64,000 nt of DNA from Leeia speluncae. GTDB taxonomy: Bacteria > Pseudomonadota > Gammaproteobacteria > Burkholderiales > Leeiaceae. Positions 6,214 to 36,048 of the stretch are shown here, one piece after another. The notes beneath the pieces were generated by a model that was given only the letters and a program-made list of their open reading frames with translations, was not told the DNA's origin and ran no database searches. Location: NCBI RefSeq assembly GCF_020564625.1, contig NZ_JAJBZT010000012.1, positions 1 through 64,000 on the forward strand, written 5' to 3'. Within the stretch, counting starts at the first letter, position 1, and each line of letters starts with the position of its first letter. Position numbers and translations under genes: made by a program.

Positions 6214-7404
6214 ATGACTCATCCAATGAAACAATTTGGCATTGGTACCAGACTTACCCAGATGGGAAGAAATCCAGATGATCAGTGTGGTTTCGTCAAT
6301 GGGCCAATATATCGGGGCTCTACCGTCTTGTATAAATCGGTTGAAGATTTGGAAAACCGAAATGCACGCTTTCATTATGGAACACATGGCACCCCAACTA
6401 TCGAAAATCTGGAATCTGCTTGGACTGAGCTGACAGGTGCTGCAGGTACCGTCCTTTCACCTTCTGGATTAGGTGCAGTAGCTCTGGCACTAATGACTAC
6501 CTTAAAAAGTGGAGATCATTTATTAATGCCAGATAGTGTGTATCGGCCTACCAGGTCATTTTGTGCCAACTTCTTAGCTAAATTTGGCGTAGAAGTCTCT
6601 TATTACGATCCTATGTCAGCAGAAAGCATTCAGAAACTCTTCAAATCGAATACAACCACCCTATTCTTAGAATTGCCTGGTTCTCAGACCTTTGAAATTC
6701 AAGATATCCCTAAACTATCCAGCCATGCAAAACATTTCGGCATAAAAACTATTATTGATAATACATGGGCAACGCCGTTATTTTTCCAAGCCCATTCACA
6801 TGGTTGCGATCTCTCTGTAGAAGCAGGAACTAAGTATCTGGGAGGGCATTCGGATTTACTACTGGGTCTTGTCAGTGCTAACCAGGAGACATGGCCAATG
6901 TTGAGGCAAATGTACGATAGTATCGCCATGTTGCCAGGTCCTGAAGATTGCTTTCTTGCGCTACGAGGATTGCGAACAATGCAGCTTCGCGTAAAGGAGT
7001 CAGAACAACGTGGGCTAGAGGTTGCGCACTGGCTTCAAGAGCAACCAGAAGTCATGACGGTTTTACATCCTGCATTCTCATCGTGCCCAGGCCATGAAAT
7101 CTGGAAGCGCGACTTTAAAGGATCCACCGGTCTTTTCTCTATTATTCTAAAACCTCAATTTACAAAGCCGGCCCTAGCGGCCATGCTTGATCAGCTTTCA
7201 TTATTTGGCATGGGATTTTCTTGGGGCGGTTTTGAAAGCCTTTTGATTCCTTTTGACTGTCAAAATTATAGAACAGCTACAACATGGAGCCCAGGAGGGC
7301 TTGCTTTAAGACTACAAATTGGTCTCGAAGACATGACGGATATCAAAAATGATCTTAGAGAAGGTTTTGATCGCCTAGTAAAAGTACAGAGCAATCTTGG
7401 ATAA
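6214..7404 (+). CDS. metC: Cystathionine beta-lyase-like PLP enzyme (Cys/Met metabolism family)
   Basis: The protein has 396 residues in the Cys/Met-metabolism PLP family (fold type I), which cleaves cystathionine to homocysteine, pyruvate and ammonia or acts on related thioethers. Visible are NGPIYRGSTVLY near the N-terminus, the FHYGTHGTPT substrate-site region, IIDNTWATPLFF, and the PLP lysine in EAGTKYLGGHSD. The start is set at 6214 because AAGGAG at 6199-6204 lies nine bases before this ATG and the resulting N-terminus matches the family; a GTG frame opening at 6112 gives an unlikely 34-residue extension. It is followed 74 bp later by an exporter. MetC is the best match, but a cysteine desulfhydrase role cannot be excluded. 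Confidence 0.8.
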   Translation: MTHPMKQFGIGTRLTQMGRNPDDQCGFVNGPIYRGSTVLYKSVEDLENRNARFHYGTHGTPTIENLESAWTELTGAAGTVLSPSGLGAVALALMTTLKSGDHLLMPDSVYRPTRSFCANFLAKFGVEVSYYDPMSAESIQKLFKSNTTTLFLELPGSQTFEIQDIPKLSSHAKHFGIKTIIDNTWATPLFFQAHSHGCDLSVEAGTKYLGGHSDLLLGLVSANQETWPMLRQMYDSIAMLPGPEDCFLALRGLRTMQLRVKESEQRGLEVAHWLQEQPEVMTVLHPAFSSCPGHEIWKRDFKGSTGLFSIILKPQFTKPALAAMLDQLSLFGMGFSWGGFESLLIPFDCQNYRTATTWSPGGLALRLQIGLEDMTDIKNDLREGFDRLVKVQSNLG

Positions 7405-7478
7405 CTAAATCCCACATATCCATCTGCTTAAGATGCGAATTTCAAATTAAAATTTGATCCTGTCCCAAATGGAAACTC

Positions 7479-8681
7479 ATGCATAATTTACAAACAAATA
7501 ACGATTATACAAAGGATATTGTCCTAATTGGTTTTATTGCACTAGCTATCACTATGGGAATCGGGCGGTTTGCCTTTACTCCACTTATGCCACTGATGCT
7601 CCGTGATGGCATCATTGACCAGACAATTGGTACGGAATGGGCCGCAAGTAACTATTTTGGCTACTTGATAGGTGCATTAACTGCTTCAACTTTTAGGCAG
7701 AACCCGCCAAAGGGTCTTAAAATTGGGCTTTCAGGTGTCGCATTCACGACCTTATTGCTAGCATGGAGCCACATCTTACCTATGTGGTTTGGCGCCTTAT
7801 TAAGGGGTAGTGCCGGCATATTTAGTGCATGGGTAATGGTATGTGTCAGTGCTTGGTGCTTGCCTGTATTAGCTGCAAGAAGGTTGGCGACTTTGGGCGG
7901 CTGGATATATATGGGAGTTGGAGTAGGAATTTCATCAGTAGGCGTAATAACTTGGCTAGGAGGAAACCAGTCCGCAAATACACTTTGGCTAGAACTTGGT
8001 ACTATAGCTACTGCTGGAGTTGTGTACATCATTTACTCAATTGGACGACCAGTTTTACAAAATTCAATCCTGAGACCCACATTTACTGGTAATCATGCAC
8101 AAGAGACGGCCACAAATGTAGCCACCACTAGTCGTGGGTTGATTATTAGCTATGCAATCTCTGGGTTCGGCTACATCATACCGGCCACGTTTCTTCCTGT
8201 AATGGCTAAAAATCTGATATCCGACCCACTTATTTTTGGTATGGTCTGGCCCATTTTTGGAGCCGCCGCCGCCCTATCTGTTGCTTTTGTAGTTGCCGGG
8301 GTAAAACAATTGCCAAAAATGAGAATTTGGGCTGTAGCTCAAGCTCTTATGGCAATCGGAACTTTGTTGCCATTGCTGCATACTTCTCTAGGCGTGTTAG
8401 CCGTTTCGGCATTTTTAGTTGGTGGGACATTTATGGTAGCAACAACTATTGGCTTGCAAATAGGCCGTGAAATGATGCCAAAAAATCCAACATCATTACT
8501 TGCAAAAATGACCGCAGGGTTTGCTGCAGGCCAGATTACAGGCCCCGTATTTGTTCGAATGATCAGCAACTATCAGATTGCGGGGCAAAATGGAATAAGT
8601 ATCGCAAGTCTCTTGGCAACAGTAGCACTTATCATTACTGCAATTTGGTTATGGCAAAATGATAAGACATCAGGGATTTAG
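7479..8681 (+). CDS. YbfB/YjiJ-family MFS transporter
   Basis: The 400-residue, very hydrophobic protein has the twelve-segment pattern of the major facilitator superfamily. The N-terminal helix segment ITMGIGRFAFTPLMPLML is characteristic of the YbfB/YjiJ group, whose substrates are mostly unknown. It acts in the inner membrane and probably exports a small metabolite. It follows the PLP lyase on the same strand and may share its LysR-controlled promoter. A weak hairpin without a T-run (8691-8706) lies just after the stop. This is the last gene before the accessory island. Confidence 0.85.
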   Translation: MHNLQTNNDYTKDIVLIGFIALAITMGIGRFAFTPLMPLMLRDGIIDQTIGTEWAASNYFGYLIGALTASTFRQNPPKGLKIGLSGVAFTTLLLAWSHILPMWFGALLRGSAGIFSAWVMVCVSAWCLPVLAARRLATLGGWIYMGVGVGISSVGVITWLGGNQSANTLWLELGTIATAGVVYIIYSIGRPVLQNSILRPTFTGNHAQETATNVATTSRGLIISYAISGFGYIIPATFLPVMAKNLISDPLIFGMVWPIFGAAAALSVAFVVAGVKQLPKMRIWAVAQALMAIGTLLPLLHTSLGVLAVSAFLVGGTFMVATTIGLQIGREMMPKNPTSLLAKMTAGFAAGQITGPVFVRMISNYQIAGQNGISIASLLATVALIITAIWLWQNDKTSGI

Positions 8682-8820
8682 AGGTTCTGGCCATTTGAGC
8701 AAATGGTCAACTAAGGTAGCCTGACAATAATAGACACGCTAACTCTTCTTAGTAGCTAATGATACACATGCTGCTTTACTTCTGAAATTGAGTGACTCAC
8801 CGGCTACAAAGTCTGATCCG

Positions 8821-9090
8821 TCAAGTCTCGCCTGCCTTTTTAAAAAAATCTACTAGCCCTAGAAGAGGTTTATCGATCTTCACAGGCGGGATTCCAGCAC
8901 GGCGTATGGGTGTTTCCCAATACTTAGCGTCTTCTGCATCAGACTGGATCCCAAGGGCTGCAGCAATTGCCATATTGCAAAAATCCTCAACACGAATCCC
9001 CTGTTTTTCACAGTACATCGTGAGTGTTAGTTTACTGGCTCCTAGATTAGAGTCCTCTTCCGGTAACGTTAGGGATAATTGGTTATCCAT
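8821..9090 (-). CDS. Hypothetical protein, 89 residues
   Basis: I do not recognise this family. The start at 9090 is chosen because GGAGG lies seven bases upstream; an ATG at 9096 overlaps that ribosome site. The protein is soluble, with a central helical stretch (about residues 35-48, DFCNMAIAAALGI) and a C-terminal part ending LVDFFKKAGET. It lies 40 bp downstream of another small leftward gene, so the two probably form a small operon at the left edge of the island. An accessory or plasmid-derived origin is inferred from position only. Confidence 0.55.
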   Translation of the reverse strand: MDNQLSLTLPEEDSNLGASKLTLTMYCEKQGIRVEDFCNMAIAAALGIQSDAEDAKYWETPIRRAGIPPVKIDKPLLGLVDFFKKAGET

Positions 9091-14020: not shown

Positions 14021-14370
14021 ATGATTCTATTTCACGACTTTGAAGAGGTATTACATCCAGATAAGGTTTATCAGGTTCGCGGCAGGCCTGTGCTACCCGA
14101 TATTACTTTAAGAAAGAAACATCGCGGCCACAGGGCATAGTACGTTTTGGAGAAATTGTAATGGTTGGCCTATTCCGAAGGGTGAAACGTGGTGGGATAA
14201 AGCGACTCGCTATGGACAAATCAAACGTTATGTTGACCACGAAAATGTCAATTATTAGATCGCCATTGATGATCAACCAATAGGATGGTCAGAAGATCAC
14301 CTCACGAGTCGAATCAAGGTAGATGGGCAACGAGGCGTGTCAGATCAGAGACTAATTTCACCTAATATAG
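14021..14370 (+). pseudogene. Decayed HAD-domain protein (Swiss-Army-knife RNA repair HAD type)
   Basis: An ATG at 14021 starts a frame resembling HAD phosphatases of this class (ILFHDFEEVLHPDKVYQV, where the usual LDFDGVLHP motif has lost its Asp residues), but it stops at 14140. A second frame from about 14145 reads TRYGQIKRYVDHENVNY, an in-frame TAG, then IAIDDQPIGWSEDHL and GVSD, which matches the C-terminal half of the same family (the TRYxQI and ALDDxxxGW segments). The middle is deleted and the TAG probably replaced a Trp codon. The gene is non-functional. The right boundary is approximate and touches the antitoxin gene on the other strand. Confidence 0.6.
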
Positions 14371-14604
14371 TTCATCCAGTACTTGAAAGAATTTGGCCTT
14401 CATTTCCTGATGCTTTTGGGCAAGTTCGTTATCCGCTAAAATTCTTTCTGCTTTCTCCATAGCCGCTTGAATAGCAAATTGACTCACCGTCGTTCCGGAA
14501 ATGATTGCTGCTAACTCAATTTTTTCCATGGTCGAACGTGAACCTCTGGCGGAGAGGCGAAAACTGCGCTCCACACCACAATTTTTCAATGCGTTGGCTT
14601 CCAT
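14362..14604 (-). CDS. DUF1778 (TacA-like) antitoxin, orphan
   Basis: The 80-residue protein carries the ribbon-helix-helix-like DUF1778 pattern: FRLSARGSRSTMEKIELAA, then TTVSQFAIQAAMEKAERIL. Such proteins bind operator DNA and neutralise a GNAT-type acetyltransferase toxin usually encoded next to them. The start at 14604 is preferred because AAGGG lies about nine bases before it; a GTG at 14613 is the alternative. No GNAT gene follows: downstream lies only the decayed HAD remnant on the other strand. It is therefore an orphan antitoxin or a remnant of a toxin-antitoxin module. Confidence 0.75.
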   Translation of the reverse strand: MEANALKNCGVERSFRLSARGSRSTMEKIELAAIISGTTVSQFAIQAAMEKAERILADNELAQKHQEMKAKFFQVLDELY

Positions 14605-14830
14605 TTTGAGCACCCTTAAAAGCGATCTTAATAATACTGAAAAGCAATAGGAAAATATTTAGTAGCGATTCTAGCAGTGTAATTAACTACTATACTCTTC
14701 TTAAGCAAGTAATGAGCGCAATGTAAGTCATCCGTAAAAATGAGTGAACATCGGTTACTACACTCACAGATTATCAACCTTAGGGTCTAACCGCTCTATC
14801 GTCAAATAAATTCATCTTGATGATTACCTT

Positions 14831-15043
14831 TCACTCGACGCAAGAGAATAGGTCCGAAGTCCTTATCAACGTCGAGCCTTTCTTACAGTCCTGCAAAGCA
14901 ATTACGTCAGGCGACATATAAGCTTGCTTTAAAATTTTGAGAAGATTCGTGGTAAGTGAATGCACCGTAAGGCTAATGTTCAGCCACAACTGTTGAGCAA
15001 GTTCAAGACAAGCAATCGTTGCTCGCAATTCGAGATCAGTCAC
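14831..15043 (-). CDS. Small hypothetical protein downstream of the ankyrin gene
   Basis: A GTG-started frame of 70 codons begins eight bases after the stop of the large ankyrin gene in the same direction, so it could be translated from the same transcript. The product is predicted to be mostly helical and Leu-rich (TIACLELAQQLWLN, SLTTNLLKILKQAYM). No ribosome site is evident and no family is recognised. It may be a real small partner or a chance frame. Confidence 0.35.
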   Translation of the reverse strand: MTDLELRATIACLELAQQLWLNISLTVHSLTTNLLKILKQAYMSPDVIALQDCKKGSTLIRTSDLFSCVE

Positions 15044-15051
15044 TAGTATAT

Positions 15052-17808
15052 CTAGTGAGTTCGTCCTGACTCACGGCTGGTTAGGTCAGGAATGGGGACC
15101 TGCTCAAGCAATTGTAATATCTGCTCCAGTTCTGTCTTGCTCGCACAGCGCTTGCCATCTTGTGCGCGTAGTGTTGCCAAAGACTCTAGTTCATCAGGCT
15201 GCTCTATTAAGGTCTCCGCTAACTCCAAAGGAGTTTTGTTGCTCTCATCTCGGTGCCAAACCAATTTTGGAGCTAACAGCGATAAGCGCTTAACTGCATG
15301 AATATGACCAGCCCAGCTTGCTGTATGCAATGGGGAACGTCCATCTTTAGTTAGCTTATCCAAGGCACATGGGTGATCCAGAAGTGCATCCACACAGCCG
15401 TCTATGAGCGATTTACATGCAGCATGTAGCGCGGTCATTCCCTGTGAGTCTTGCATATCCGGATCTGCTCCCGCTCCCAACATAATCTTGAGCAGCGCCG
15501 TGTCGCCAGCTTCAGCTATTAGCATGAGCGGAGTTTGCCCCTTGAGATCAGCCATATTTAATTGTCTGGGGCTCTCCATTGCTAACAACCCAAGAAATTT
15601 TTTCCAATGAACCAACATATCTTCGAACTTCCGTTGCTCGTCTTGCAAATCATCAGGGAGTAATTTTCGCATTAGTGGAAGTTTCGACATAAATTGGGTA
15701 TGCCGTTTGATCAGGCTAATTAATACCGAATTGCCCTCAACATCTGGCAGAGGGGATTTCAACAATGATTGATTGGTTCTTATCCAGTGCCGGAGACCAT
15801 CTTGATTCCCAGACATAAGCAGAGGTATCAGATCCTGATATATTTTCTTAACCATTTCACTGGAGATGCGTTTCTCAGTCGGAATATCCGGATATGGTCT
15901 GTAGAGAGTGCTCCAGAAATATTCCGAAGCAGATCGAGCAACCTCCTCGATTGGTGGCACATCTTGGTATTTCATCATCCACCCACCCAGCATCTCTCGG
16001 TAGTACTTTTCGTGGTTGTTGGCGATAAGCTTACCGTTGGCAACAGCTAGTGCGAGACAATCCTTAGCTATCCAGGTACGCAACGTACCGAAATTGCTTT
16101 CGAAACTAGCCTCCAATGCCGCACGGAAGAGTTTCTCCGCGCTGTCGAAGTCATTACAGGCTAGCAGGTGTTTAGCCTTGTACTGCAAAATGACCGCCCT
16201 CCAAAGCGCATAGCCATCACTCGCCTCCGCTTCTTTAATCAAAGCTTCAACCTTGACTCGCGTATCTTTTGGACGATTTCTATATTCGCCATTAAGATGA
16301 ACATCAAGTTCTAGAAGAATGGCTTGAACAGTTTGAGCAGGTGAAGTCGCCAGTTCACGAAGTCGTTGAACAGCCATAAGTTTGGTTTCTCGTCCAAAGG
16401 TATGAAACTGCGCAACCTGCGCAACAACCCAGTAGCGATGTTCCTCCTGCAAAGTACGCCAAGGAGATGATGCCCTCATTCGCTCACGAAGCTTTAACAT
16501 ACTTCGTCGTTCATCCACGAAAGTTTCTGTACGCAGGGCATTCCGTTGAATAATGCTGAGAGTCGATGACTCATCCCAGCCAAAGAGATTTTCTAACTCA
16601 TCATCAGCCTGCATTTCAAAGAAAATACGAGTCAGGAAAGAAGCAAGTTCTAGATTGGACGAGTCCCTACGAGATGGCAGGATGGATAGAAACAGGCTAT
16701 TCTTTCCCCACTTAGGCAGATGTTCTTCGAAGCAAGCATTTTCAGCTGACTCACCTTGATCACAGCAATTTAGCCAAGCATCAATTGTGAGGTTATAAAC
16801 TAACTTGTAGAGAGAGCAAATTTGCAGAAGCTTGTTCTGCTGGGGATCAGTGCATGACCGATCAACATTTGGGCAAAGATGCTTGAGCAAACGGATGTAA
16901 CCATCCTGCACCATACGAGCTATCCGTAATCTTTGGCGAATGGTACTCATGAGGGGAGCCGCATAGCGTAAAGCTAGGCATTTAATAAATTCTGCCTGCT
17001 CGTTTTCATTGGCCTGCCCTTCCAGAATTGCTTCTAGACGCCCTGGTGCGGTCATGGCTATCTCAAGACGCAACTTGTCAGCAGTAAGCGCTTTACGTTT
17101 CACAAATGCCAAGGCATCAGAGAACTGTTGTGCATGTCCTCTTGTGATATCAAGAGAAAACGCACCATTGAACTTTAATTTCGCTTCGTCAGGAAAGTAT
17201 TTCTGAATGCTGTCGAGTCGAATTGGAGTCTCATTACGCCAATTGTACAATGAGCGCCTTATGTCATCATGACTGAGGTCATTATCATTAGGCTTACCGT
17301 ACTCATTTGCATGTTGCTCCACCGTTACACCAAGCAAATCAAGTAACCAGTCCACGACCTGAGCCACCGGTAAATATAGGCGATCTTTGCCATCTGCATT
17401 ACGGGTTTCTGGCAAATACCAGAAACGACCTGCTGCCATGCCGTTATCTAATGGTTGTTCGAGATGCCAAAACGCCACATGACGTGCCAATCCAGGGATA
17501 AACAAATGTCCCAACAGAACCCAAAGAATTTGAGGCGAATTTGCTGCAAACGTCCAGACATTCAACTCGATAGATTTGTAGTTGTTGATAAACTCCACGA
17601 GGTTATAGATCGCGTCCGATTGTGCTTGCTCATCCATGCCAAAAGCATTGAATATGCCACTAATAACTTCATCACACATGGCTGTGTGTAGATCAAGACT
17701 AACCTGTCCTGTTGAAAACTTATTTTTTTTGTTGGTCGGATACGGCGTACCCCCAAGACTTTGAAGGATTTCTAGGAGAATAGCTTCTGTAAGAGGCAAC
17801 GCGCTCAA
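15052..17808 (-). CDS. Large ankyrin-repeat protein, divergent from the viperin gene
   Basis: The protein has 918 residues. The first ~740 residues match no family I know; they are soluble, mostly helical and Trp/Leu-rich, with a possible helical-repeat region around 500-600. About three ankyrin repeats occupy roughly 748-845, recognisable from KGQTPLMLIAEAGDTALL, QGMTALHAACKSLIDG and DGRSPLHTASWAGHIHA. Ankyrin repeats mediate protein binding, so this may be a sensor or scaffold. There is no signal peptide or membrane segment. It is transcribed divergently from the prokaryotic viperin gene across a 197-bp region with a large inverted repeat, which suggests shared control. A role in antiviral defence is inferred from the neighbour only. 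Confidence 0.75.
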   Translation of the reverse strand: MSALPLTEAILLEILQSLGGTPYPTNKKNKFSTGQVSLDLHTAMCDEVISGIFNAFGMDEQAQSDAIYNLVEFINNYKSIELNVWTFAANSPQILWVLLGHLFIPGLARHVAFWHLEQPLDNGMAAGRFWYLPETRNADGKDRLYLPVAQVVDWLLDLLGVTVEQHANEYGKPNDNDLSHDDIRRSLYNWRNETPIRLDSIQKYFPDEAKLKFNGAFSLDITRGHAQQFSDALAFVKRKALTADKLRLEIAMTAPGRLEAILEGQANENEQAEFIKCLALRYAAPLMSTIRQRLRIARMVQDGYIRLLKHLCPNVDRSCTDPQQNKLLQICSLYKLVYNLTIDAWLNCCDQGESAENACFEEHLPKWGKNSLFLSILPSRRDSSNLELASFLTRIFFEMQADDELENLFGWDESSTLSIIQRNALRTETFVDERRSMLKLRERMRASSPWRTLQEEHRYWVVAQVAQFHTFGRETKLMAVQRLRELATSPAQTVQAILLELDVHLNGEYRNRPKDTRVKVEALIKEAEASDGYALWRAVILQYKAKHLLACNDFDSAEKLFRAALEASFESNFGTLRTWIAKDCLALAVANGKLIANNHEKYYREMLGGWMMKYQDVPPIEEVARSASEYFWSTLYRPYPDIPTEKRISSEMVKKIYQDLIPLLMSGNQDGLRHWIRTNQSLLKSPLPDVEGNSVLISLIKRHTQFMSKLPLMRKLLPDDLQDEQRKFEDMLVHWKKFLGLLAMESPRQLNMADLKGQTPLMLIAEAGDTALLKIMLGAGADPDMQDSQGMTALHAACKSLIDGCVDALLDHPCALDKLTKDGRSPLHTASWAGHIHAVKRLSLLAPKLVWHRDESNKTPLELAETLIEQPDELESLATLRAQDGKRCASKTELEQILQLLEQVPIPDLTSRESGRTH

Positions 17809-17872
17809 AATGTATGTCCAGTAATTTGGTTGTAGTTATAGTAATTTTCCTGAGTTCTCTCTATCTAGTCAC

Positions 17873-17946
17873 TGAAACTATTTGTCCCCCCCCCCGACGG
17901 CACCCCTTTTGCATATCAAACTAGGGAGGGGGTACAAGTAGTTTCA
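17873..17946. repeat. Large imperfect inverted repeat with a 10-C tract between ankyrin and viperin genes
   Basis: The left arm, TGAAACTATTTGTCCCCC, from 17873 is the near-inverse of the right arm GGGGGTACAAGTAGTTTCA ending at 17946. The arms pair over about 18 positions with two mismatches and enclose about 37 bases. The left arm runs into ten consecutive C residues (17886-17895). The element lies in the only intergenic space shared by the two divergent genes, so it could be an operator, an RNA structure, or the ends of a miniature transposable element. The C-tract could slip during replication. Confidence 0.7.
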
Positions 17947-18005
17947 TATTATTCTAAATTTTCCTCCTGCATTATTCGTGACTTCCACACTATCGAGTCA
18001 GAGTA

Positions 18006-18917
18006 ATGCATAAACCAACGACATTAGTAATCAACTGGCATCTAACCGAAGTTTGCAACTATCGTTGTCAGTATTGTTATGCTACTTGGAATGAGTCGTC
18101 TCATCATCGCGAGTTGATCCACAATCCAGAAAAAACCATAGCACTAATGAGTGAGTTGCATCAGTTCTTCAAGCCAAGTAGTCATAAAAATATATTGGGC
18201 AAAAAGATGGAATGGAATGCGGTAAGGATCAACTTTGCAGGTGGCGAACCATTACTCTATACGGAAAAGATCCCATCTATTATCAATCATGCAAAAGAAC
18301 TGGGGTTTGAAGTATCAATGATTACCAATGGCAGTCAATTGAGTGAAGATTTGCTGGGTCGATTGGCACCTCAGTTGAGTTGGCTAGGAATCAGCATTGA
18401 TTCTATCAATCCAGTAACCAATAACAATATTGGTAGGATAGATCGTCGAGGTCGCTTGCTTAACTATGAGACTTTAGCTCAACACTTAATTGATGCACGC
18501 AAGTCCAATCCTAATCTGCGCATCAAGCTCAACACAGTGGTCAACCAGTTGAATTATCACGAAGACCTGAGTACTTTCATTAAGCACTTAGCCCCGAATA
18601 AGTGGAAAGTTCTGCGAATGCTACCGGTGGTAAACCACAACCTAACAGTTAGCGATGAGCAGTTTAAAACTTTCGTTACCCGTCATCACGAGTTTCATGA
18701 CATCCTAAGTGTGGAAGACAATCATGACATGCATGAGTCATACCTGATGATCGACCCCTATGGAAGATTTTTTCAAAACAAGCCTCAGCTTGAAGGGCAA
18801 GGCTATAACTATAGCCAGCCCATTCTGGAGGTAGGAGCTGCAGCTGCGTTTGCAAAAATGACCTTTGACATCGAAAGATTCATAGCACGTTATGTCGTAA
18901 CCAAAAGCGATGACTGA
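18006..18917 (+). CDS. Prokaryotic viperin (pVip), antiviral radical SAM enzyme
   Basis: The 303-residue protein matches viperin along its length. The radical SAM cluster is C17-x3-C21-x2-C24 within EVCNYRCQYCYATW; the SAM-binding GGE motif is NFAGGEP at 76-82; ITNGSQLS and LNTVVNQLNYHEDL follow, then NKWKVLRMLPV, ESYLMIDPYGRF and a C-terminal ILEVG segment, as in animal viperin. pVips convert CTP, GTP or UTP to 3'-deoxy-3',4'-didehydro nucleotides that terminate phage RNA synthesis. Which nucleotide this one uses is not visible. No nucleotide-kinase gene, a common pVip neighbour, is adjacent; the neighbour is the divergent ankyrin protein. The ribosome site is weak. It is predicted to be cytoplasmic. 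Confidence 0.93.
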   Translation: MHKPTTLVINWHLTEVCNYRCQYCYATWNESSHHRELIHNPEKTIALMSELHQFFKPSSHKNILGKKMEWNAVRINFAGGEPLLYTEKIPSIINHAKELGFEVSMITNGSQLSEDLLGRLAPQLSWLGISIDSINPVTNNNIGRIDRRGRLLNYETLAQHLIDARKSNPNLRIKLNTVVNQLNYHEDLSTFIKHLAPNKWKVLRMLPVVNHNLTVSDEQFKTFVTRHHEFHDILSVEDNHDMHESYLMIDPYGRFFQNKPQLEGQGYNYSQPILEVGAAAAFAKMTFDIERFIARYVVTKSDD

Positions 18918-19299
18918 ACGGCCTTAGTTTATGATAAGAGTGTTTAATCAAAGGGCATGAACAGCAGTAAGGGATCAGCTTCACAACAAAGCTTGCTCAT
19001 AAACCTGTTCAAACTCTTCAAGTGGCCTGCCACCGTAGTTCTTCGAAGAGGAAATACTCCTGCAGCGCTTGAGAATCATCGACTTTGCCGAGGGATTAAG
19101 TAACCTTATGTATCTCGGTTTAATGCTATATTTTCGGGCTTTACATGGCGATGGAACTCATTCTGCAATCGCACAGTACTCAGACCGTTAGAAAAAGCTC
19201 TACAGTTAAGGGCTCATTCGCGCCGAATCATTGACAAACACTTGTTACCCCCATTCATTTGAAGCCTATACCCCAATTTAACATGGAAGAAAAATAGCT
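18918..19299. other. Gene-free stretch after the viperin gene
   Basis: About 380 bases without a convincing gene. A minus-strand reading around 18990-19080 gives a C-terminus-like peptide ending in LEEFEQVYEQALL followed by a stop, which may be the tail of a lost gene, but no family is recognised. No clear terminator is visible after the viperin stop. Confidence 0.4.
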
Positions 19300-21456
19300 T
19301 TACGGAAGCTGTTTTACTTCCGAGTATAATTTTTTTAAGTGTGCAATCCCTAAATCCAAGATAGGCTCATACATAAAAGAATTTAGATGAATGTTCTCAG
19401 GAGTCATTAAATTAACCTGTTCAAGCACCAAAACATCCCCCTCTTTACCAAGGCTCAACCTTTTGTATTCCTGAAGGAGCTTGATGGTTTGGTTCTCCGT
19501 GATGGCACCCACAAAAGCGGCATTGTTGATGGATTTAATCATATGCCGTTCAGCAAGCAATCTGATAGCAATCGAGAGAACAATCTTCCCTTCAAGTTCT
19601 ACAGCCTCTTCTTGAGCATTAAAAACTGATTCCGCCTCTTCGTTGATCAAATCTATTACAAGCTTCGTTTGTGGATTCAATGTCAATTGCTGCTTGTCAG
19701 TCAGAATTTTCTTGTAGATCGCGCAAAGCTCATCAAGAGTCATGGTGTCGGTATCACCTTTGACATGAAGCAATGATGTGAGCTTGAGAAATTCCGCGTC
19801 CAAACCGCAATATTCGGCCAAGTTACGAACAAATGGAATTGCTGAAATACAAAAAGCAGGTGTTGTTAAATTATCCCTCCAGTGATTAAAAGGATTCTTC
19901 TGATATTTTTCTTGAATCAGCTTAAGCTTTCTGCCTGTCTTGGTTGCATGCAGTTTGCAATCACGCCTTAACCCAAGCCTACCACTGATACTTCTGTAGA
20001 AATCGAAATTGTGGGAAAGAAAGAGACACAGGAATTGACCAGATGCTGAAATATCCTTGAGATATTCAATGATTGCATACTTGTTTTTATAGTCAAACGA
20101 GTCCGCAATATCATCAATTACCAAGATGGTTGTTGCACCTTGCTTCCTTCTCGTCTCAATCTCAAACATGATGTTCAATATATAGAGTGCTCTTCTTTCA
20201 CCTTGACTAAGCACTTTCAGCAAAGAGTCTCTAGCAACATCACCTTCACCATCGCCATCTTTGAATTTGAATGCAATTGAAGGTTGTGACCCTCTCAAGA
20301 TCACATCATCTTGGTTTGCTACGCTCATCTTAAACGGGACAGAGAACCGCTTGTTGAAAGTATCAACAACTGCTTCCCATTCTGTTCTTTCACTCTTGGC
20401 TTGCTCAATAGCCTCTTCAATAGTGACCTTGCTCGTTCTGTAGGCATCTAGGAATTGGTTATAGAGGTCCTTCTGATCAACCAAATAAGCAATCCAAAGG
20501 TCTTCCTGAAGCTTATTGAAGTCCTTCAAATAGGGAAGGATGTGCTGATTATCAAAGAGATAATCTCTGAATTTTCGTAGCTCAGTGTTTTGTATTTTCT
20601 TATCTATAGCATCAAATTTGGTAGCAAGAACCTTATCGGTCAGAATCTTCTTGCGTTCCTCTTCAATCTTTTCTGCAAGCTCATCAGCAGTAGAAATCTC
20701 TTTTATCCCATCTTTGGTTCTGAGATTTACTGAATGTTTTGCCTCAAAAAAACCATTGTCTTTGAGTTGCTTGTTAACAGTTGATGCGCTGTAGTGATTG
20801 AATTGCTTACTGAGAACGTCAGACTTGGAAACCAGTTCGTTGTATTTTTGGATATATTCTTCCAGCTGATCTTTGATTGACCCAGAATCCAGAAGCCCAA
20901 CTGTCTTGTCATTGAAAACTTCTGCATAGACCACAGTGGAAAGCTGCGAAGGAGTGCCGGCCCTCACAGGTTCTTCCAATGACTCTACAAGTTCAGCAAG
21001 CGACTTCTTTCCAAAGCATTTCAATATTTCAGTTTCAGGAGTAACGGTTCTACCAGTCAAACCAGACAATTGTTTCAGCTTCGCAAACAAAGCAGCCTGT
21101 TTATCAGCAATCTCCTTGAGAGCATCATCATACTTTTGTTTAACGGCACCATTAACAAGAAGCCGTGATGTTTTCTCAGATGAAAAATCGGCATTGTAGG
21201 GCTCAACAACAAATACTGAATCAGCGGCAATGTCACTACCCGCATCATCTTTTATTGATCTGCTTGATGCTCTTTCTGGAAAAATCAAGTCCTTCGTTTC
21301 TCGTCCCTTGGTGAGATCATCAAAGGTCTTTGAAAACGACGTTTTCATGAAGCCGTTTGGTGCATAAATGGCATAGCCATTGCTATTGCTAAAATCAAAT
21401 TCATGCACCAATTCACTGATGCCATAGCAGTTCTTAAGGTCAATGGAAAGCTTCAC
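19300..21456 (-). CDS. AAA/ABC-type ATPase with coiled coil, SMC/RloC-like architecture
   Basis: The 718-residue protein is an ATPase split by a long helical insert. The Walker A-like loop APNGFMKTS is at 32-40 and lacks the usual first Gly. The middle (about 110-400) is charged and helical. The ABC-signature-like LSQGERRALYIL is at about 409-420 and Walker B TILVIDDIADSFD at about 440-452. The C-terminal ~250 residues match nothing I recognise. ATPases of this build (RloC, PrrC, Lsr-type and other anti-phage proteins) sense DNA damage or phage activity. It lies 50 bp after the DUF262-HNH gene in the same direction, but a strong terminator sits in the gap, so its expression may be partly uncoupled. 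Confidence 0.75.
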   Translation of the reverse strand: MKLSIDLKNCYGISELVHEFDFSNSNGYAIYAPNGFMKTSFSKTFDDLTKGRETKDLIFPERASSRSIKDDAGSDIAADSVFVVEPYNADFSSEKTSRLLVNGAVKQKYDDALKEIADKQAALFAKLKQLSGLTGRTVTPETEILKCFGKKSLAELVESLEEPVRAGTPSQLSTVVYAEVFNDKTVGLLDSGSIKDQLEEYIQKYNELVSKSDVLSKQFNHYSASTVNKQLKDNGFFEAKHSVNLRTKDGIKEISTADELAEKIEEERKKILTDKVLATKFDAIDKKIQNTELRKFRDYLFDNQHILPYLKDFNKLQEDLWIAYLVDQKDLYNQFLDAYRTSKVTIEEAIEQAKSERTEWEAVVDTFNKRFSVPFKMSVANQDDVILRGSQPSIAFKFKDGDGEGDVARDSLLKVLSQGERRALYILNIMFEIETRRKQGATTILVIDDIADSFDYKNKYAIIEYLKDISASGQFLCLFLSHNFDFYRSISGRLGLRRDCKLHATKTGRKLKLIQEKYQKNPFNHWRDNLTTPAFCISAIPFVRNLAEYCGLDAEFLKLTSLLHVKGDTDTMTLDELCAIYKKILTDKQQLTLNPQTKLVIDLINEEAESVFNAQEEAVELEGKIVLSIAIRLLAERHMIKSINNAAFVGAITENQTIKLLQEYKRLSLGKEGDVLVLEQVNLMTPENIHLNSFMYEPILDLGIAHLKKLYSEVKQLP

Positions 21457-23461: not shown

Positions 23462-25648
23462 TCATTGCACAGGTTCCAACTTTTCCTCAAGACGGGCAAA
23501 AAGAAATTTTAAGTCATCGGTCATGCAATCCTCTTTAACTTCAAGTATCTCTCGCAAGTGTCCATCCTCTACACGAAGACGCTGAGTCCAAAGTGCCATT
23601 AAGAACTCAAGAGCCGCCTCGCCCTGCTCATTATCCCAGTTGCGAAGTACTGACAAAATTACATCAGTCATCTGACGGCTAAAAATATGATCGACTCGAT
23701 AGTCCATCTCAACTGGGCGAGCCGCACGTAGCAGGCAAGATTGAATAACCCCGTCGTTGTATCTGTCAAAATTGGCAGGACTAATTAGAGTCGTATGGTA
23801 AGAGGTTGCTAATCCGTTATTTTCAGATGCGTTCCTTAGATCGTGTAACACTGATTGCACGGTCCAATAGACATCTGCTTGTGTGGACTTGCTTAATCTT
23901 TTTGCATCGAACCCAAAATCTGACCAAAACGCAAACGTCTGTCGAAGTGTTAAGACTTTTCCCGAGCTGGTTGGCAGAAATAAATTGTTAGAATCAAATG
24001 AGTTGCCCACCAACAAACTCAAGCGCCCAGAAAAAATATCTGGAAGGTTTTTAATGTCGCTGCCAAAAGGATCATCATCACCAAACGGTTGCAAACACTC
24101 CCGCTCTGAGTCCCATGCGGTTTTTGTGTACTCTTTTACTCGCGGCATCCTACAATGATTGAGAACCGCCAAGAAATGCCCACCTTGAGAAAGGTCTTTT
24201 CTTAGCTGCTCGAATGCATCACCGTTAGGCATTTTCGAGAATGCAACCAAGTAGGTTATGGTGGAGGATTCATGAATACATCGCAATTTTCTTGAAATTG
24301 CCAACAAACTTCGCCCCGATGTAATTGCGCCAACCAACACGATGACTGAAGAGGCATCCTTCATCATAACTTCTGTTAAATCACCGTACTTCACCCAATT
24401 AACAGAGTTATCCTCACTAGTAAAGTACTCCTTAACCTTGTCTTTCAATGCCTGCGAGCCCGCGTCATCAAAATAGATTACAGTTCTAAGGTCTCTTGAT
24501 AAGTATCTCTTAACGTATTTATCAAGCTCACTCCAAAACGGTTCCAATTTAAGCGCCAATGCCTCCTTTACATCGATGTAAAAGTGCTCATTAAACTCTT
24601 CAGTGGACCTCACCGCGATATTCCATTTAAGAACATTCTGAGCGGCAAACTGTCTGAAGAAACCCTGCCTATCCTTATTAAAATCGGTCTTCTTTATTAT
24701 TAAAAGTTCGTGTTTCGGATTTTCCGGAAGAAACTGATCTCCGGCAATGCGTATCAGTTTTGAACCTTGTTTGCAAAACTCACAATCTGAAGCTTTACCA
24801 GATACCAACTTTTCTCCGACCTCTGCTGCAACCTCAAAAACGCCACGCTGGCCGGGCGGTAAATTTACATGAAAAAGTGTTATAACTTGCTCATTTGTAA
24901 ATAAAGTTTTATTGAGCAACTTATTTGCAAGAGAACCACTGGTTGTGGCGGAAATAAATAATAAGGAACTATCATCTTCTACAAAATCAAACTGCTCATT
25001 TAACACTGCATAGGATGCAAAACTTTCAATTGCAGGAAATCCAGAGTCAAAATTATGATAAAGCTGAATTGCTACGCTAATTAAATATGAAATAGATGAG
25101 GAATCAACATAGATACGTTTCAAGTCCTTTCGCATAAATGGCAGCAAAGATAGTGCAAGAAAAGCAACCTCAACACCAGAAACTAGAAGATTGGATGCTC
25201 GAATGAAGCTATTACAATGATCACCGGATGGTTTTGCAAAATGATAGCCGTGGTTAGATACCACCAAACCACTACGCTGCTTAAAAATTGCATCCATTCC
25301 TTCATGAAGGAGGGTGGCGCTTAGATCCTCCTCAATAGCCCTACCAGTACAGTCTTTGAATTTCCCATCTATATCTACTGATAAACAAAATAAGCGTTGA
25401 TTAATATCACCGACGTACGAATCAAACTCACTGGCAAACGTCGAATCAGCCTTACAGTTAGGCAAAGTAATTAAGCAATTTTCCAATGAAATTAGATATA
25501 CATTTTTCGGAACAAGATTTTCCGTAACATCCATTTTTAACGCTTTGGAGATCACATCCAATCTAATATTTGAGACAAAAAAAATAGCAAGACTTGTCCG
25601 AGCTTTATTTTGAGGCTCAGAAAATCTAAAGGCAAAATAGTCACTCAT
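23462..25648 (-). CDS. Uncharacterised 728-residue protein with PRTase-like segments, coupled to a GHKL ATPase
   Basis: The start at 25648 is chosen because GGAGG precedes it and its A is shared with the stop codon TAA of the upstream gene, so translation is coupled. A longer frame to 25744 is unlikely. Two parts recall type I phosphoribosyltransferases: a segment around residues 137-155 (KPSGDHCNSFIRASNLL) and a PRPP-loop-like stretch at about 434-451 (VIVLVGAITSGRSLLAI). In the second, the usual acidic pair is absent. I cannot name the family firmly. There is no signal peptide or clear membrane segment. The context (DUF262-HNH on one side, Type ISP RM on the other) makes a conflict-system role likely by inference. 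Confidence 0.7.
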   Translation of the reverse strand: MSDYFAFRFSEPQNKARTSLAIFFVSNIRLDVISKALKMDVTENLVPKNVYLISLENCLITLPNCKADSTFASEFDSYVGDINQRLFCLSVDIDGKFKDCTGRAIEEDLSATLLHEGMDAIFKQRSGLVVSNHGYHFAKPSGDHCNSFIRASNLLVSGVEVAFLALSLLPFMRKDLKRIYVDSSSISYLISVAIQLYHNFDSGFPAIESFASYAVLNEQFDFVEDDSSLLFISATTSGSLANKLLNKTLFTNEQVITLFHVNLPPGQRGVFEVAAEVGEKLVSGKASDCEFCKQGSKLIRIAGDQFLPENPKHELLIIKKTDFNKDRQGFFRQFAAQNVLKWNIAVRSTEEFNEHFYIDVKEALALKLEPFWSELDKYVKRYLSRDLRTVIYFDDAGSQALKDKVKEYFTSEDNSVNWVKYGDLTEVMMKDASSVIVLVGAITSGRSLLAISRKLRCIHESSTITYLVAFSKMPNGDAFEQLRKDLSQGGHFLAVLNHCRMPRVKEYTKTAWDSERECLQPFGDDDPFGSDIKNLPDIFSGRLSLLVGNSFDSNNLFLPTSSGKVLTLRQTFAFWSDFGFDAKRLSKSTQADVYWTVQSVLHDLRNASENNGLATSYHTTLISPANFDRYNDGVIQSCLLRAARPVEMDYRVDHIFSRQMTDVILSVLRNWDNEQGEAALEFLMALWTQRLRVEDGHLREILEVKEDCMTDDLKFLFARLEEKLEPVQ

Positions 25649-26844
25649 TATTTTGCCTCCAATGGAATTAACATACTGATAGCCACTCCACATGCCCTTG
25701 GCATAGAGGTTACGTTTATATCTGCCACATCGTTTGATTCCCAATCAAAAAATTCAGGCGACTTATCAGACTCATAAGGTGACGATATAAAATTACGAAA
25801 TAGGCCAAGTCGGCCACTACGTATGCGCATAAAACCACCAAGTCTCGTCAACCTATCCATCACCACAGGTAATCCATTACCTTTACTGTCTTTCAAAGTG
25901 GAACTTTGCCTAAAGTTAAAACACTTCTTGAATATGCTGTATTCATCTTCGATTGATATTTCTGTAAACCCTTCACTGATATTTTGATCTGCCAACCATC
26001 GATCGCAATAACCAAGGCCAGAATCTACGATACCGATTTCCATGAAGCGAATTTGCCGCTCATCGGGATACTTTCTTGCAACAGTTTCATGGTAATTCGA
26101 TAGATTTGGCTGATATTCGACATTCCCTCCTGCGCTACTCTTGCGGAGGTTTACCCCTTGAACATAAACGATACGAACGCCGGGTTTTAACCATGTTCCG
26201 CGAGAGCTATCTCGGGAACCATGTTCATGCGTATTCAGGAAAAGCTCATAAAAAATTCGGCCAAGTGCATCCATATCATTAGCAGCAATCTTCTTTCCCG
26301 CTCCGGGTGCAACTAATGCCTGACCGACCATCTTTTGAATTAGTGCATTAAATTGATCTGGCTGTCGAGGTACTGGAATTGACTCTGATTTTGCTATGTA
26401 AAAGTTGGGGTCAAATCCTTTTGAACTGTGATCTACAAACGCGAACCAACATAATCCCCCACGCTTTTGACCAAAAGGGCTTTGTGCTTGATCTTCAATA
26501 GCCTTCCTAGCTGCAGTATTTACAAACAGCTTCAAGTCATTTTCTGGCTTATTTGTTAGCGAGATCGACTTTGCAAACATCGCTGCCACAAACTTATGAG
26601 GCTTTTTAATCAAATCTTCGATTTCATCGTTGGATACGCTTTTGTTTAATGCAAGTGCTCTTGTATCACTGAGACGTGCCCACGTATTTATGACTTGAAT
26701 GGCACTCGCCAATCCTCCGAATGAGCTTGCATATCCAGTTGTGCCTACAGGTAACCTCAATACACTCGCACTCTTTCCATTTATGATGTCAGCGATGGTT
26801 TTTTCGCATGCCTCAATTGTGATGGTCTTAGGAAAATTAATCAT
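25648..26844 (-). CDS. GHKL-type ATPase (HATPase_c domain) of a two-gene module
   Basis: The 398-residue protein carries the Bergerat-fold signatures in order: an N-box-like FYELFLNTHEHG at about 198-209, a G1-box VDSGLG at about 272-278, and a G2-like KGNGLPVV at about 321-328. No histidine-phosphotransfer (DHp) segment, sensor or membrane region is visible, so it is not an ordinary histidine kinase. It resembles stand-alone GHKL proteins such as MORC/Hsp90-like ATPases of conflict systems. The N-terminal ~150 residues are unrecognised. It is the first gene of the pair; its stop overlaps the start of the PRTase-like gene by one base. Confidence 0.75.
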   Translation of the reverse strand: MINFPKTITIEACEKTIADIINGKSASVLRLPVGTTGYASSFGGLASAIQVINTWARLSDTRALALNKSVSNDEIEDLIKKPHKFVAAMFAKSISLTNKPENDLKLFVNTAARKAIEDQAQSPFGQKRGGLCWFAFVDHSSKGFDPNFYIAKSESIPVPRQPDQFNALIQKMVGQALVAPGAGKKIAANDMDALGRIFYELFLNTHEHGSRDSSRGTWLKPGVRIVYVQGVNLRKSSAGGNVEYQPNLSNYHETVARKYPDERQIRFMEIGIVDSGLGYCDRWLADQNISEGFTEISIEDEYSIFKKCFNFRQSSTLKDSKGNGLPVVMDRLTRLGGFMRIRSGRLGLFRNFISSPYESDKSPEFFDWESNDVADINVTSMPRACGVAISMLIPLEAK

Positions 26845-34704: not shown

Positions 34705-35605
34705 TTAATTTTTCAATATTTGGTTTGGATTTCCATCTTTTGCCGCGCCTGGCCCGATGGTTACGGAGGTATTACCTGTCTGTACTTCGTTCACTGCTGA
34801 CTTTTACAAAATCGGATTCGCTTTTTCGTTAAAGCGCTTTTCCACAACCTTGCGGGTCGTCCTTTCGGCATCGATAGATCGATGGGCTTGCATTCTTCAT
34901 TTAATAATTTTGGTCGTTGCCGCGTCCGATACACCCCCTGCCAAGGGTGTCACGGCTTACCTCTGCAATGCGTTTCATCAGCGGGACGCTGACTAAGGAC
35001 ATTGATCGCATTAATCGCGAAATCGAGGAACCAAAAACAGATTGGTAAAAAAAAGAGGTGTCGCTTAGGTGTGCGTGATTCCAACAGACGGATATCTGTC
35101 TTACGCAACTAGCCTTACCAGAGAATTAACTTTGGCGGCTTGGATGCTAGGTGTTCCTAGCTGTGGGAACGGTCTGTACCGTTGCCAAGGTGTCTCTTAT
35201 GAGACTTTAAGAAATGAAGGCTGCTGCCTACTAGACCATGATTGAGAAAAATTGGCGCTCATGATGGTTAGAAATGTAATTCAGGTTTGTTCGATATGTC
35301 AATAGGCTTTTTTGGTTTAACCTTTTTATTCACCCTACTTTCACAAGTTAAATCAGCCTTCTATCCCAGTATCCATCAGGGGTGGCAGGATTCTCTCTGG
35401 TGGAACTTATGGTTCATCTTCGCCTACCCACCCCTAGAAAATAGTTTAAAGGATGCAAATTTGAGCCTCTGCAACAACAGCGACGTGGGGAAATAGCAAT
35501 GTGTTATGCATCGATTAAGGACCGCTATTGCCCCCTATAACGAAAATTGGAGGCCCACCACTCCGCTGGGGGTTTCAATCTTTTATTAACAGGCAAGTTA
35601 ATCCC
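34705..35605. other. Gene-poor region upstream of the integrase
   Basis: About 900 bases hold no convincing gene. A frame at 35287-35496 encodes a hydrophobic peptide (FFGLTFLFTLLS) but starts at TTG without a ribosome site. Small hairpins occur, for example ACACCC...GGGTGT around 34930-34948 and CGCTTT...AAAGCG around 34819-34836. The sequence is somewhat GC-richer than the flanks from 34750 to 35000. The stretch might contain the recombinase attachment site or a transfer origin, but I can name neither. Confidence 0.35.
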
Positions 35606-35973
35606 GCAAAGCCTGTATCTAAATCTGCAAAGCCTGTATCTAAATCTGCAAAGGGTGCATCTAAATCGGCAATACCTGCATCCAAATCTGCAAAGGGTGC
35701 ATCTAGATCGGCAAAGCCTGTATCTGAATCGGCAAAGGGTGCATCTAAATCGGCAATGCCTGTATCTGAATCGGCAAAGGGTGCATCTAGATCGGCAAAG
35801 CCTGTATCTGAATCGGCAAAGGGTGCATCTAGATCGGCAAAGCCTGTATCTGAATCGGCAAAGGGTGCATCTAGATCGGCAAAGCCTGTATCTAAATCGG
35901 TAAAGGGTGCATCTAGATCGGCAAAGTCGATTATCTTTTTTTCAAAATCTGTCCATTTTCTGGAATTTGGCAC
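35575..35973 (-). CDS. Possible heptapeptide-repeat protein encoded by the minisatellite
   Basis: A GTG-started frame of 132 codons reads through the array, giving an acidic protein of FADLDxx heptads with Ala-Asp-Leu-Asp every seven residues. Differences between units are more often silent in this frame (TTA/CTA Leu, GCA/GCC Ala) than in the plus-strand frame, where AAA/AGA/GAA changes alter the residue; Leu to Ser is the main exception. This mildly favours the minus frame. There is no clear ribosome site, and none of the frames may be translated. No known family is recognised. Confidence 0.3.
   Translation of the reverse strand: MPNSRKWTDFEKKIIDFADLDAPFTDLDTGFADLDAPFADSDTGFADLDAPFADSDTGFADLDAPFADSDTGIADLDAPFADSDTGFADLDAPFADLDAGIADLDAPFADLDTGFADLDTGFAGLTCLLIKD
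35606..35920. repeat. Minisatellite: 15 tandem 21-bp units, alternating two variants
   Basis: Fifteen 21-bp units run head to tail without interruption. From the third unit on they alternate between a type with aaagcctgtatct and a type with aaagggtgcatct, giving a 42-bp higher-order repeat. Because 21 is a multiple of three and units lack stops, several frames stay open across the array. On the minus strand the units encode heptapeptides FADLDTG and FADLDAP; on the plus strand AKPVSKS and AKGASRS. A partial unit follows at 35921. Confidence 0.95.
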
Positions 35974-36048
35974 ATTTAAGGCCTAATAACTCAGCTCATA
36001 GAAATTGAAATTCTGGAAAAATTGTTATGTGTATATCGGGATTTTGGA

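Follow-up and report, generated by a model that had tools for sequence, protein, structure and literature searches.

Viperin-family enzymes make chain-terminating nucleotides, and human viperin is induced by interferon. Prokaryotic viperins (pVips) are said to have been described with nucleotide kinases by Bernheim and colleagues in 2021. Other bacterial defence systems have dedicated regulators, the WYL proteins BrxR and CapW being known cases. A second line of work joins pVip to small RNases: hicA directly downstream of pVip is already known, as Class 10 HicA, in the text available for PMC10865869, and a set of papers (PMC10865869, PMC8565338, PMC11594946, PMC12926258, PMC13064858 and PMC12111858), in their accessible parts and taken together, places pVip with HicA or RelE. 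Section 10 of PMC10865869 poses the regulation of the RNases beside prokaryotic viperins as an open question, together with whether they add to the effect of the viperin. The conserved, two-sided control element that we describe below bears on this question of RNase regulation.

The protein families concerned are the same as those in PADLOC-DB, where pVip (PDLC02903-02905), Ankyrin (PDLC02908), HicA-like (PDLC02910) and VakA (PDLC02911) appear as viperin parts. Because these accessions lie close to one another, PADLOC's authors very likely list pVip, Ankyrin, HicA-like and VakA together, and all three parts of the module discussed here (pVip, Ankyrin and HicA-like) are already public in that database. 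Its profile names give no control region or mechanism. The main text of the PADLOC paper (PMC8565338) mentions neither viperin, pVip nor ankyrin, and ankyrin is likewise absent from the main text of PMC10865869. Within the passages covered of the open-licence PMC literature, we found no link of pVip to an ankyrin protein or a control element; nor did we find a description, in the same accessible literature, of the two-sided element, the connection to Ank, the swapping of effectors or the absence of hicA seen here.

The locus lies in the window, by which we mean the whole 64,000-nucleotide stretch of Leeia speluncae DNA analysed (Table 1). By all tests applied to its sequence, the pVip ORF is a genuine prokaryotic viperin. 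It matches NCBIfam NF038283 at 369.5 bits (cut-off 180, residues 7-296) and PADLOC PDLC02903, the profile for pVips 'not associated with kinases', at 349.7 bits. The cysteines of its radical SAM motif CX3CX2C (C17-x3-C21-x2-C24) are common to all 14 aligned relatives, and its NFAGGEP motif is kept as AGGEP in 13 of the 14, with AGGET in L038. This bears out a sequence-only reading that had called the protein a clear viperin homolog on those motifs and had given it positions 17,809-18,917, which comprise the 197-bp intergenic region plus pVip. The same reading had an ankyrin protein standing beside pVip instead of a nucleotide kinase. That holds locally, as none of 11 neighbouring ORFs compared with PADLOC and/or Pfam is a kinase adjoining pVip, but it is no rule, since the related locus L054 combines Ank, pVip and the kinase VakA (PDLC02911). 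Compared with the pVip-kinase systems, then, the enzyme family is the same and the kinase is absent from the window and present in this relative.

Table 1. Features of the ank-pVip locus, in window positions.
Feature	Position	Strand	Basis or remark
ank, 918-aa helical/ankyrin protein, TTG start	15052-17808	-	divergent from pVip; PADLOC, alignment, AlphaFold
Ank residues 742-864, ankyrin repeats	15217-15585	-	Pfam Ank_2 (92.6 bits) among others
Ank residues 225-311, putative DNA-binding part, helix-turn-helix-like, of five predicted helices	16876-17136	-	inference, models
-10-like box GAAAAT of ank	17844-17849	-	22 bp after TTTCAG
-35-like hexamer GTGACT of ank	17867-17872	-	17-bp spacer; overlaps element
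ank-promoter element GGGGGGACAAATAGTTTCAGTG	17870-17891	-	ends 61 bp before start codon; 23.4-23.9 bits, leave-own-clade-out matrix
Inverted repeat, left arm	17873-17895		repeat search, pairs with 17924-17946
Inverted repeat, right arm	17924-17946		repeat search, pairs with 17873-17895
pVip-promoter element GGGGGTACAAGTAGTTTCATAT	17928-17949	+	ends 56 bp before start codon; 14.7-15.8 bits
-10-like box CATTAT of pVip	17970-17975	+	22 bp after TTTCAT; without -35-like hexamer 17 bp upstream
pVip, 303-aa radical SAM enzyme (prokaryotic viperin)	18006-18917	+	profile matches, motif, alignment
Site of hicA-like gene in relatives; none found here	18918-19299	+	tblastn, family search

A HicA-like ORF directly follows pVip on its 3' side in all 13 pVip-and-Ank loci from the genome scan, overlapping it by 4 nt in 11 loci and by 1 nt in two, which is the gene order given in the accessible text of PMC10865869; the window differs in having no hicA. 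The statement that the ankyrin protein is the only close neighbour of pVip is consequently right for the window but not for its relatives. No hicA-like gene was found beside the window pVip by tblastn with three HicA-like queries, and PDLC02910 has no match across the whole genome, so that, judged by these searches, the window copy of the module is a reduced one. All 20 HicA-like sequences collected match PDLC02910 and share an invariant H29. Three of them were compared with Pfam HicA_toxin and scored 14.2, 16.8 and 22.1 bits, all below the gathering score of 27, and no HicA model of NCBIfam matches the HicA-like sequences. Downstream of hicA in 17 loci we saw no conserved fourth gene beyond the pairs L017-L020 and L026-L035, and no HicB. 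A hicA-like gene also stands 3' of pVip without a nearby Ank in L011, L049 and L050/L057. The last of these holds two pVip-hicA pairs about 11 kb apart (L057:3005-3609 and 14452-15526), the first with a partial pVip that contains an internal stop.

The divergent gene encodes a protein with ankyrin repeats at its C-terminal end (residues ~742-864), as had been read from the sequence; PADLOC PDC-M72A also matches there (residues 749-864). Its N-terminal ~740 residues had been described as unrecognised. This is correct for Pfam, which has no family above cut-off outside the ankyrin repeats and detects no WYL or HTH domain, but not for PADLOC, since PDLC02908 'Ankyrin' matches Ank over the full length of the profile (1286 bits, residues 1-901, profile 1-880 of 880). 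In our alignment of 28 Ank sequences (A2), invariant columns are confined to the sole region spanned by all 28, so their position tells us nothing. The AlphaFold model has a mean pLDDT of 87.9 and a pTM of 0.79, and the matches that Foldseek listed for the whole model, at least 50, are ankyrin proteins, designed ankyrins and their fusion proteins. The N-terminal 320 residues gave nothing at E ≤ 0.001 in PDB and BFVD. With VIA-align, five rows were confined to residues ~215-290, three of them regulators and two non-regulators (7ae9_C and 7vti_A). The regulator rows (Ank ~222-283) are weak, with low Z values: 7dlv_F with Z 3.9, which we take to be Stl, 4yv6_D (Rgg2) with Z 3.2 and 4ryk_A (a Listeria regulator) with Z 2.8; we assume that the parts aligned to Ank are their HTHs. 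Pfam found no HTH family in the 28 Ank N-terminal parts, the best weak match being DUF4158 in two of the 28, and hmmsearch of residues ~215-290 against PDB sequences gave no match. Profile comparison by hhalign of Ank with five Xre proteins from the loci was negative, but this is a weak test, since the Xre alignment had five rows and other slices of Ank scored alike. DNA binding by Ank is putative, and the support for it from the fold is weak. An early idea of a second HTH at residues 140-212 found no support and was dropped.

An important question is how often ank and pVip occur together. The species-genome scan used a two-sequence Ank profile that rests on two short peptides and is independent of pVip, so the 29 loci it yielded (33-66% identity) stand for at least 29. 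Twenty-five are testable, with the start of ank unbroken and 1 kb or more of DNA in front of it; the pVip count omits L016, L030, L031 and L042, where the contig ends or the 5' end of ank is broken. A divergent pVip across a short gap is present in 13 of the 25, and no pVip was found in the DNA examined for the remaining 16 of the 29 loci. L051 (extended as L054), found through the pVip family search, also pairs Ank with pVip. The supposition that the pairing is conserved thus stands from the side of ank but not from that of pVip, where it is a minority state. The pVip family searches were positive in 5 of 369 and 4 of 398 genomes, the window's genome being counted in both, and among seven other near-complete pVip loci with ~1.5 kb flanks (L046-L052; L053, with a partial pVip, is excluded) Ank accompanies pVip in L051 only. 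On plasmids, 14 records have a near-complete pVip and five an Ank match, with zero overlap; the four Acinetobacter plasmid records with Ank have no pVip match, and in the three Acinetobacter plasmid records that were opened ank is interrupted beside insertion-sequence genes. Overall, about half of the Ank loci carry pVip and most sampled pVips are without Ank. Within the class sample of 369 genomes Ank occurs solely in the genome of the window. In viral contigs no relative of Ank or pVip was found with single-protein queries, whose reach is limited to close relatives; phage records gave nothing but the ankyrin repeats of Wolbachia phages, and a comparison at the DNA level gave no match in E. 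coli genomes.

We mapped the pVip-hicA state on a tree of 30 Ank proteins, where it is scattered over alpha-, beta- and gammaproteobacteria and one Myxococcota locus. It requires six changes, four of them forced by well-supported branches, compared with a mean of 10.1 for shuffled states, which are as low as six in 5 of 500 shuffles. The tree fits an old association followed by several losses, with the deepest joins unsure owing to long branches. The surroundings of pVip differ elsewhere. In the Moraxella/Acinetobacter plasmid loci L012 (2733-6879) and L013 (2966-6903), a short ORF (116-119 aa) and an ORF of ~222 aa, of the LRAT family in L013, lie upstream of pVip, which faces a divergent ORF of 531-584 aa without a PADLOC match. 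L056 has two neighbouring pVip-like genes (7122-8913) with 41% and 22% identity to the window pVip.

The intergenic region contains an inverted repeat, not listed in the sequence-only reading, with 23-nt arms that are 87% complementary and 28 nt apart. Comparison of the loci resolves it into two copies of one directional 22-bp element with the consensus GGGGGKAC-N6-TTTCA, followed by GTG on the ank side or mostly by TAY on the pVip side. Sites were scored with a weight matrix trained on ank-side sites only, chosen initially by eye and regular expression, with each locus's own clade omitted, L051/L054 not used and no pVip-side site in training, so that the 14.7-15.8 bits of the window pVip promoter come exclusively from ank-side sites of other loci. 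Twenty-one of 28 ank promoters reach at least 14 bits, the test excluding L030, L031 and L042, in which the ank 5' end is lost or broken. In L034 and L044 the corresponding position gives 7.6 and 5.4 bits, L044 being weak on both sides (effector side -0.5), and the other five (L036, L038, L039, L041 and L054) have no ank-side element, with an effector-side one present in all five. The pVip promoters separate by the presence of Ank: all 15 with Ank score 8.1-19.2 bits, compared with -10.0 to 7.4 for 10 without, the highest of which (L014) has its site displaced to 95 bp upstream; starts are approximate, set by alignment, for six of these 10 controls and for the pVips of L024, L032, L036, L038 and L039. 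Where present, the element ends 54-63 bp before the start codon of ank and 53-82 bp before that of pVip, the larger pVip distances coming from loci whose pVip start was left unfixed. Empirical p values for the promoter scores carry no weight here, as true sites within the random windows set a floor to them.

The element is rare outside these promoters. Across 511 kb, five hits of at least 14 bits are found away from the promoters of ank and pVip. Three of the five are second arms beside ank, in L034, L037 and L041; the remaining two, which we set aside, are L033:3677 and L042:13137, the latter by eye where an apparent coding sequence begins. In the window's genome, a 19-nt arm pattern has two mismatch-free matches, both in this intergenic region, and three further matches at three mismatches vs. 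16 for a reversed control. For 12 other Ank genomes, the pattern gives 92 hits with up to two mismatches, ank sites included, vs. 107 for the reversed pattern; four one-mismatch hits lie away from ank, in G748, G749, G750 and G755. At loci without pVip, too, the element stands in front of ank. Comparison of these sequences thus shows the element to track Ank rather than pVip. Across five loci the spacing between the two elements ranges from 23 to 47 bp, which makes cooperative binding across both of them doubtful.

The element lies at similar places in the two promoters. A gap of 22 bp between the element and a -10-like box is best on both sides: among 53 offsets, it gives an average of 3.44 matches to TATAAT in the 21 ank-side sequences, where the mean over all offsets is 1.60 (s.d. 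0.53), and of 2.92 in the 17 effector-side ones, where that mean is 1.55 (s.d. 0.41), with single sequences varying in their fit and Acidocella-type loci poor. The ank-side set for the -10 and -35 comparisons omits L034, L044 and the five site-less loci, the effector-side set L017 and L044. With a 17-bp spacer, matches to the six positions of TTGACA average 3.64 on the ank side (GTGAYA) and 1.62 on the effector side; with a 21-bp spacer both sides reach 2.9-3.3, because TTTCA resembles part of TTGACA. The element spans about -54 to -33, around which class II activators bind. From its sequence, the effector promoter looks activator-dependent; an element lying over the -35 of ank would equally fit autorepression.

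Our best reading of these data, in which we place about as much trust as doubt, is that Ank binds the element and controls both itself and pVip(-hicA), probably activating pVip. We found no gene other than Ank to be shared by the loci with the element, and the element is not enriched elsewhere in the genomes tested, which is the reason for taking Ank as its reader. The locus would then represent an old, widely scattered defence module with ank on one strand, pVip-hicA on the other and a shared control region between them. A sigma-70-type promoter of its own would supply Ank in small amounts, and Ank would bind the element via its helical N-terminal part. Its helical/ankyrin solenoid may sense infection, upon which Ank would activate the pVip(-hicA) promoter, which is without a -35 and has the element at the position of a class II activator. 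The pVip enzyme would make chain-terminating nucleotides and the HicA-like RNase, where present, would arrest translation; the genome of the window would retain the pVip arm alone. A broader version, which we regard as tentative and rather doubtful, is that Ank is a new one-protein infection sensor and transcription activator, in which a helical DNA-binding part is fused to a solenoid of TPR/ankyrin-like type, that switches on viperin and a companion RNase upon phage attack, with interchangeable effectors (pVip-hicA, pVip-kinase, small ORF-hicA) behind one promoter element. If true, this would be a bacterial counterpart of interferon-induced viperin, and with Ank as the switch infection-induced viperin would occur in bacteria as in animals. 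Under this model a sensing pathway would turn on the enzyme in both cases; unlike that of human viperin, the bacterial switch would be a single protein encoded beside the enzyme, and we claim no homology of the control parts. BrxR/CapW systems likewise have a regulator-like gene and a palindromic control region beside defence genes, whereas Ank is without WYL or HTH domains in Pfam and the elements here lie at two promoters at a variable mutual distance.

The ankyrin protein had been suggested as a sensor, regulator or second effector of a composite system. The shared element makes a regulator plausible, but where ank faces pVip a HicA-like gene normally comes with the latter, and Ank is conserved without pVip. 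What stands opposite ank varies, which would suit a role of ank as the invariable controlling component. In one pVip-less clade (L034, L037 and L044) a 27-28-aa ORF and then hicA take this place, in L041 two tandem, similar 45-aa ORFs do so instead of pVip-hicA (7547-7832, minus strand), and in L042 hicA adjoins a broken ank. The 27-28-aa ORF, between element and hicA, is Gly/Asn-rich (L037:7639-7722, L044:7642-7725 and L034:~7648-7728, minus strand); L041 also carries a TnsD/TniQ gene of a Tn7-like element. Neither pVip nor hicA is found opposite the full-length ank of L019, L021, L022, L023, L025, L027, L028 and L043. These eight loci favour the idea that Ank is an autoregulated defence effector in its own right, with pVip-hicA a neighbour that shares the element and acts independently, as does the company of other defence genes near ank in some of them: type III restriction in L021, a TmtA-like gene in L022 (the label was extended to L023 and L025 by eye from L022, the one scanned) and Septu in L043. 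Purifying selection in the two clades that hold most of the eight loci points the same way. The dN/dS of Ank is 0.12-0.24 in eight pairs of pVip-less loci, two of which include L030 or L031 with a lost ank 5' end, compared with 0.15-0.18 in three pVip-hicA pairs and 0.15 in one mixed pair, so that pVip-less Ank appears about as constrained as Ank with pVip. No pVip match was found anywhere in the 12 genomes tested, out of 16 such loci. With Ank constrained where pVip is absent, no pVip in those genomes and no element hits beyond control, regulating pVip is not the sole task of Ank; on this sequence evidence it must have a further function, most simply a defence activity of its own. An Ank that acts independently of pVip nevertheless seems unlikely to us, if less so than the other alternatives, since the back-to-back order recurs across three classes of proteobacteria (alpha, beta and gamma) and in one Myxococcota locus, and matched elements in both promoters exceed what chance neighbours need.

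Should Ank be merely one regulated gene, some other protein would read the element, either a regulator of the host or a special sigma factor. The want of a recognised DNA-binding domain in Ank would suit this, as would the likeness of GGTAC-N6-TTTCA to sigma-54 sites, which are two-part in look; the sigma-54 consensus, however, differs in its spacing and has a GC in its -12 part that is missing here. Such an outside reader is improbable when the element goes with Ank in several distant groups, shows no enrichment elsewhere in 12 genomes and is missing from 10 Ank-less pVip genes. That no HicB was seen after hicA in 17 loci, and that Ank and hicA occur without pVip in three, could also mean that Ank is an antitoxin or repressor of the HicA-like toxin in HicB's stead, freeing toxin and pVip on infection. 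We consider this very improbable: hicA-like genes follow pVip without a nearby Ank (L011, L049, L050/L057), Ank is kept without hicA in eight loci and in the window, and the three Ank-hicA loci without pVip are a single clade. Finally, the window is a defence island, in which ank and pVip might have met by chance. The data already contradict this reading, and its likelihood is close to nil, given the same orientation and short gap in 13 of 25 loci, though pVip is found in just 5 of 369 and 4 of 398 genomes, and the element common to both promoters.

The island around ank and pVip includes a Fic protein, PDC candidates and a type IIG-like restriction gene. The region 3' of pVip (18880-19320) has no plasmid match; by eye it may be an insertion-sequence remnant. 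An ORF at 14362-14613 encodes a TacA-type antitoxin (Pfam TacA1). The ORFs of the PDC-M65A and PDC-M65B candidates, as called, overlap by 97 bp (25648-25744), and the long TTG start of the latter may be misplaced in the upstream direction, for residue 33 is the first that its PADLOC match covers. An ORF at 35528-35986, close to where the island ends, opens with runs of SKSA-type repeats.
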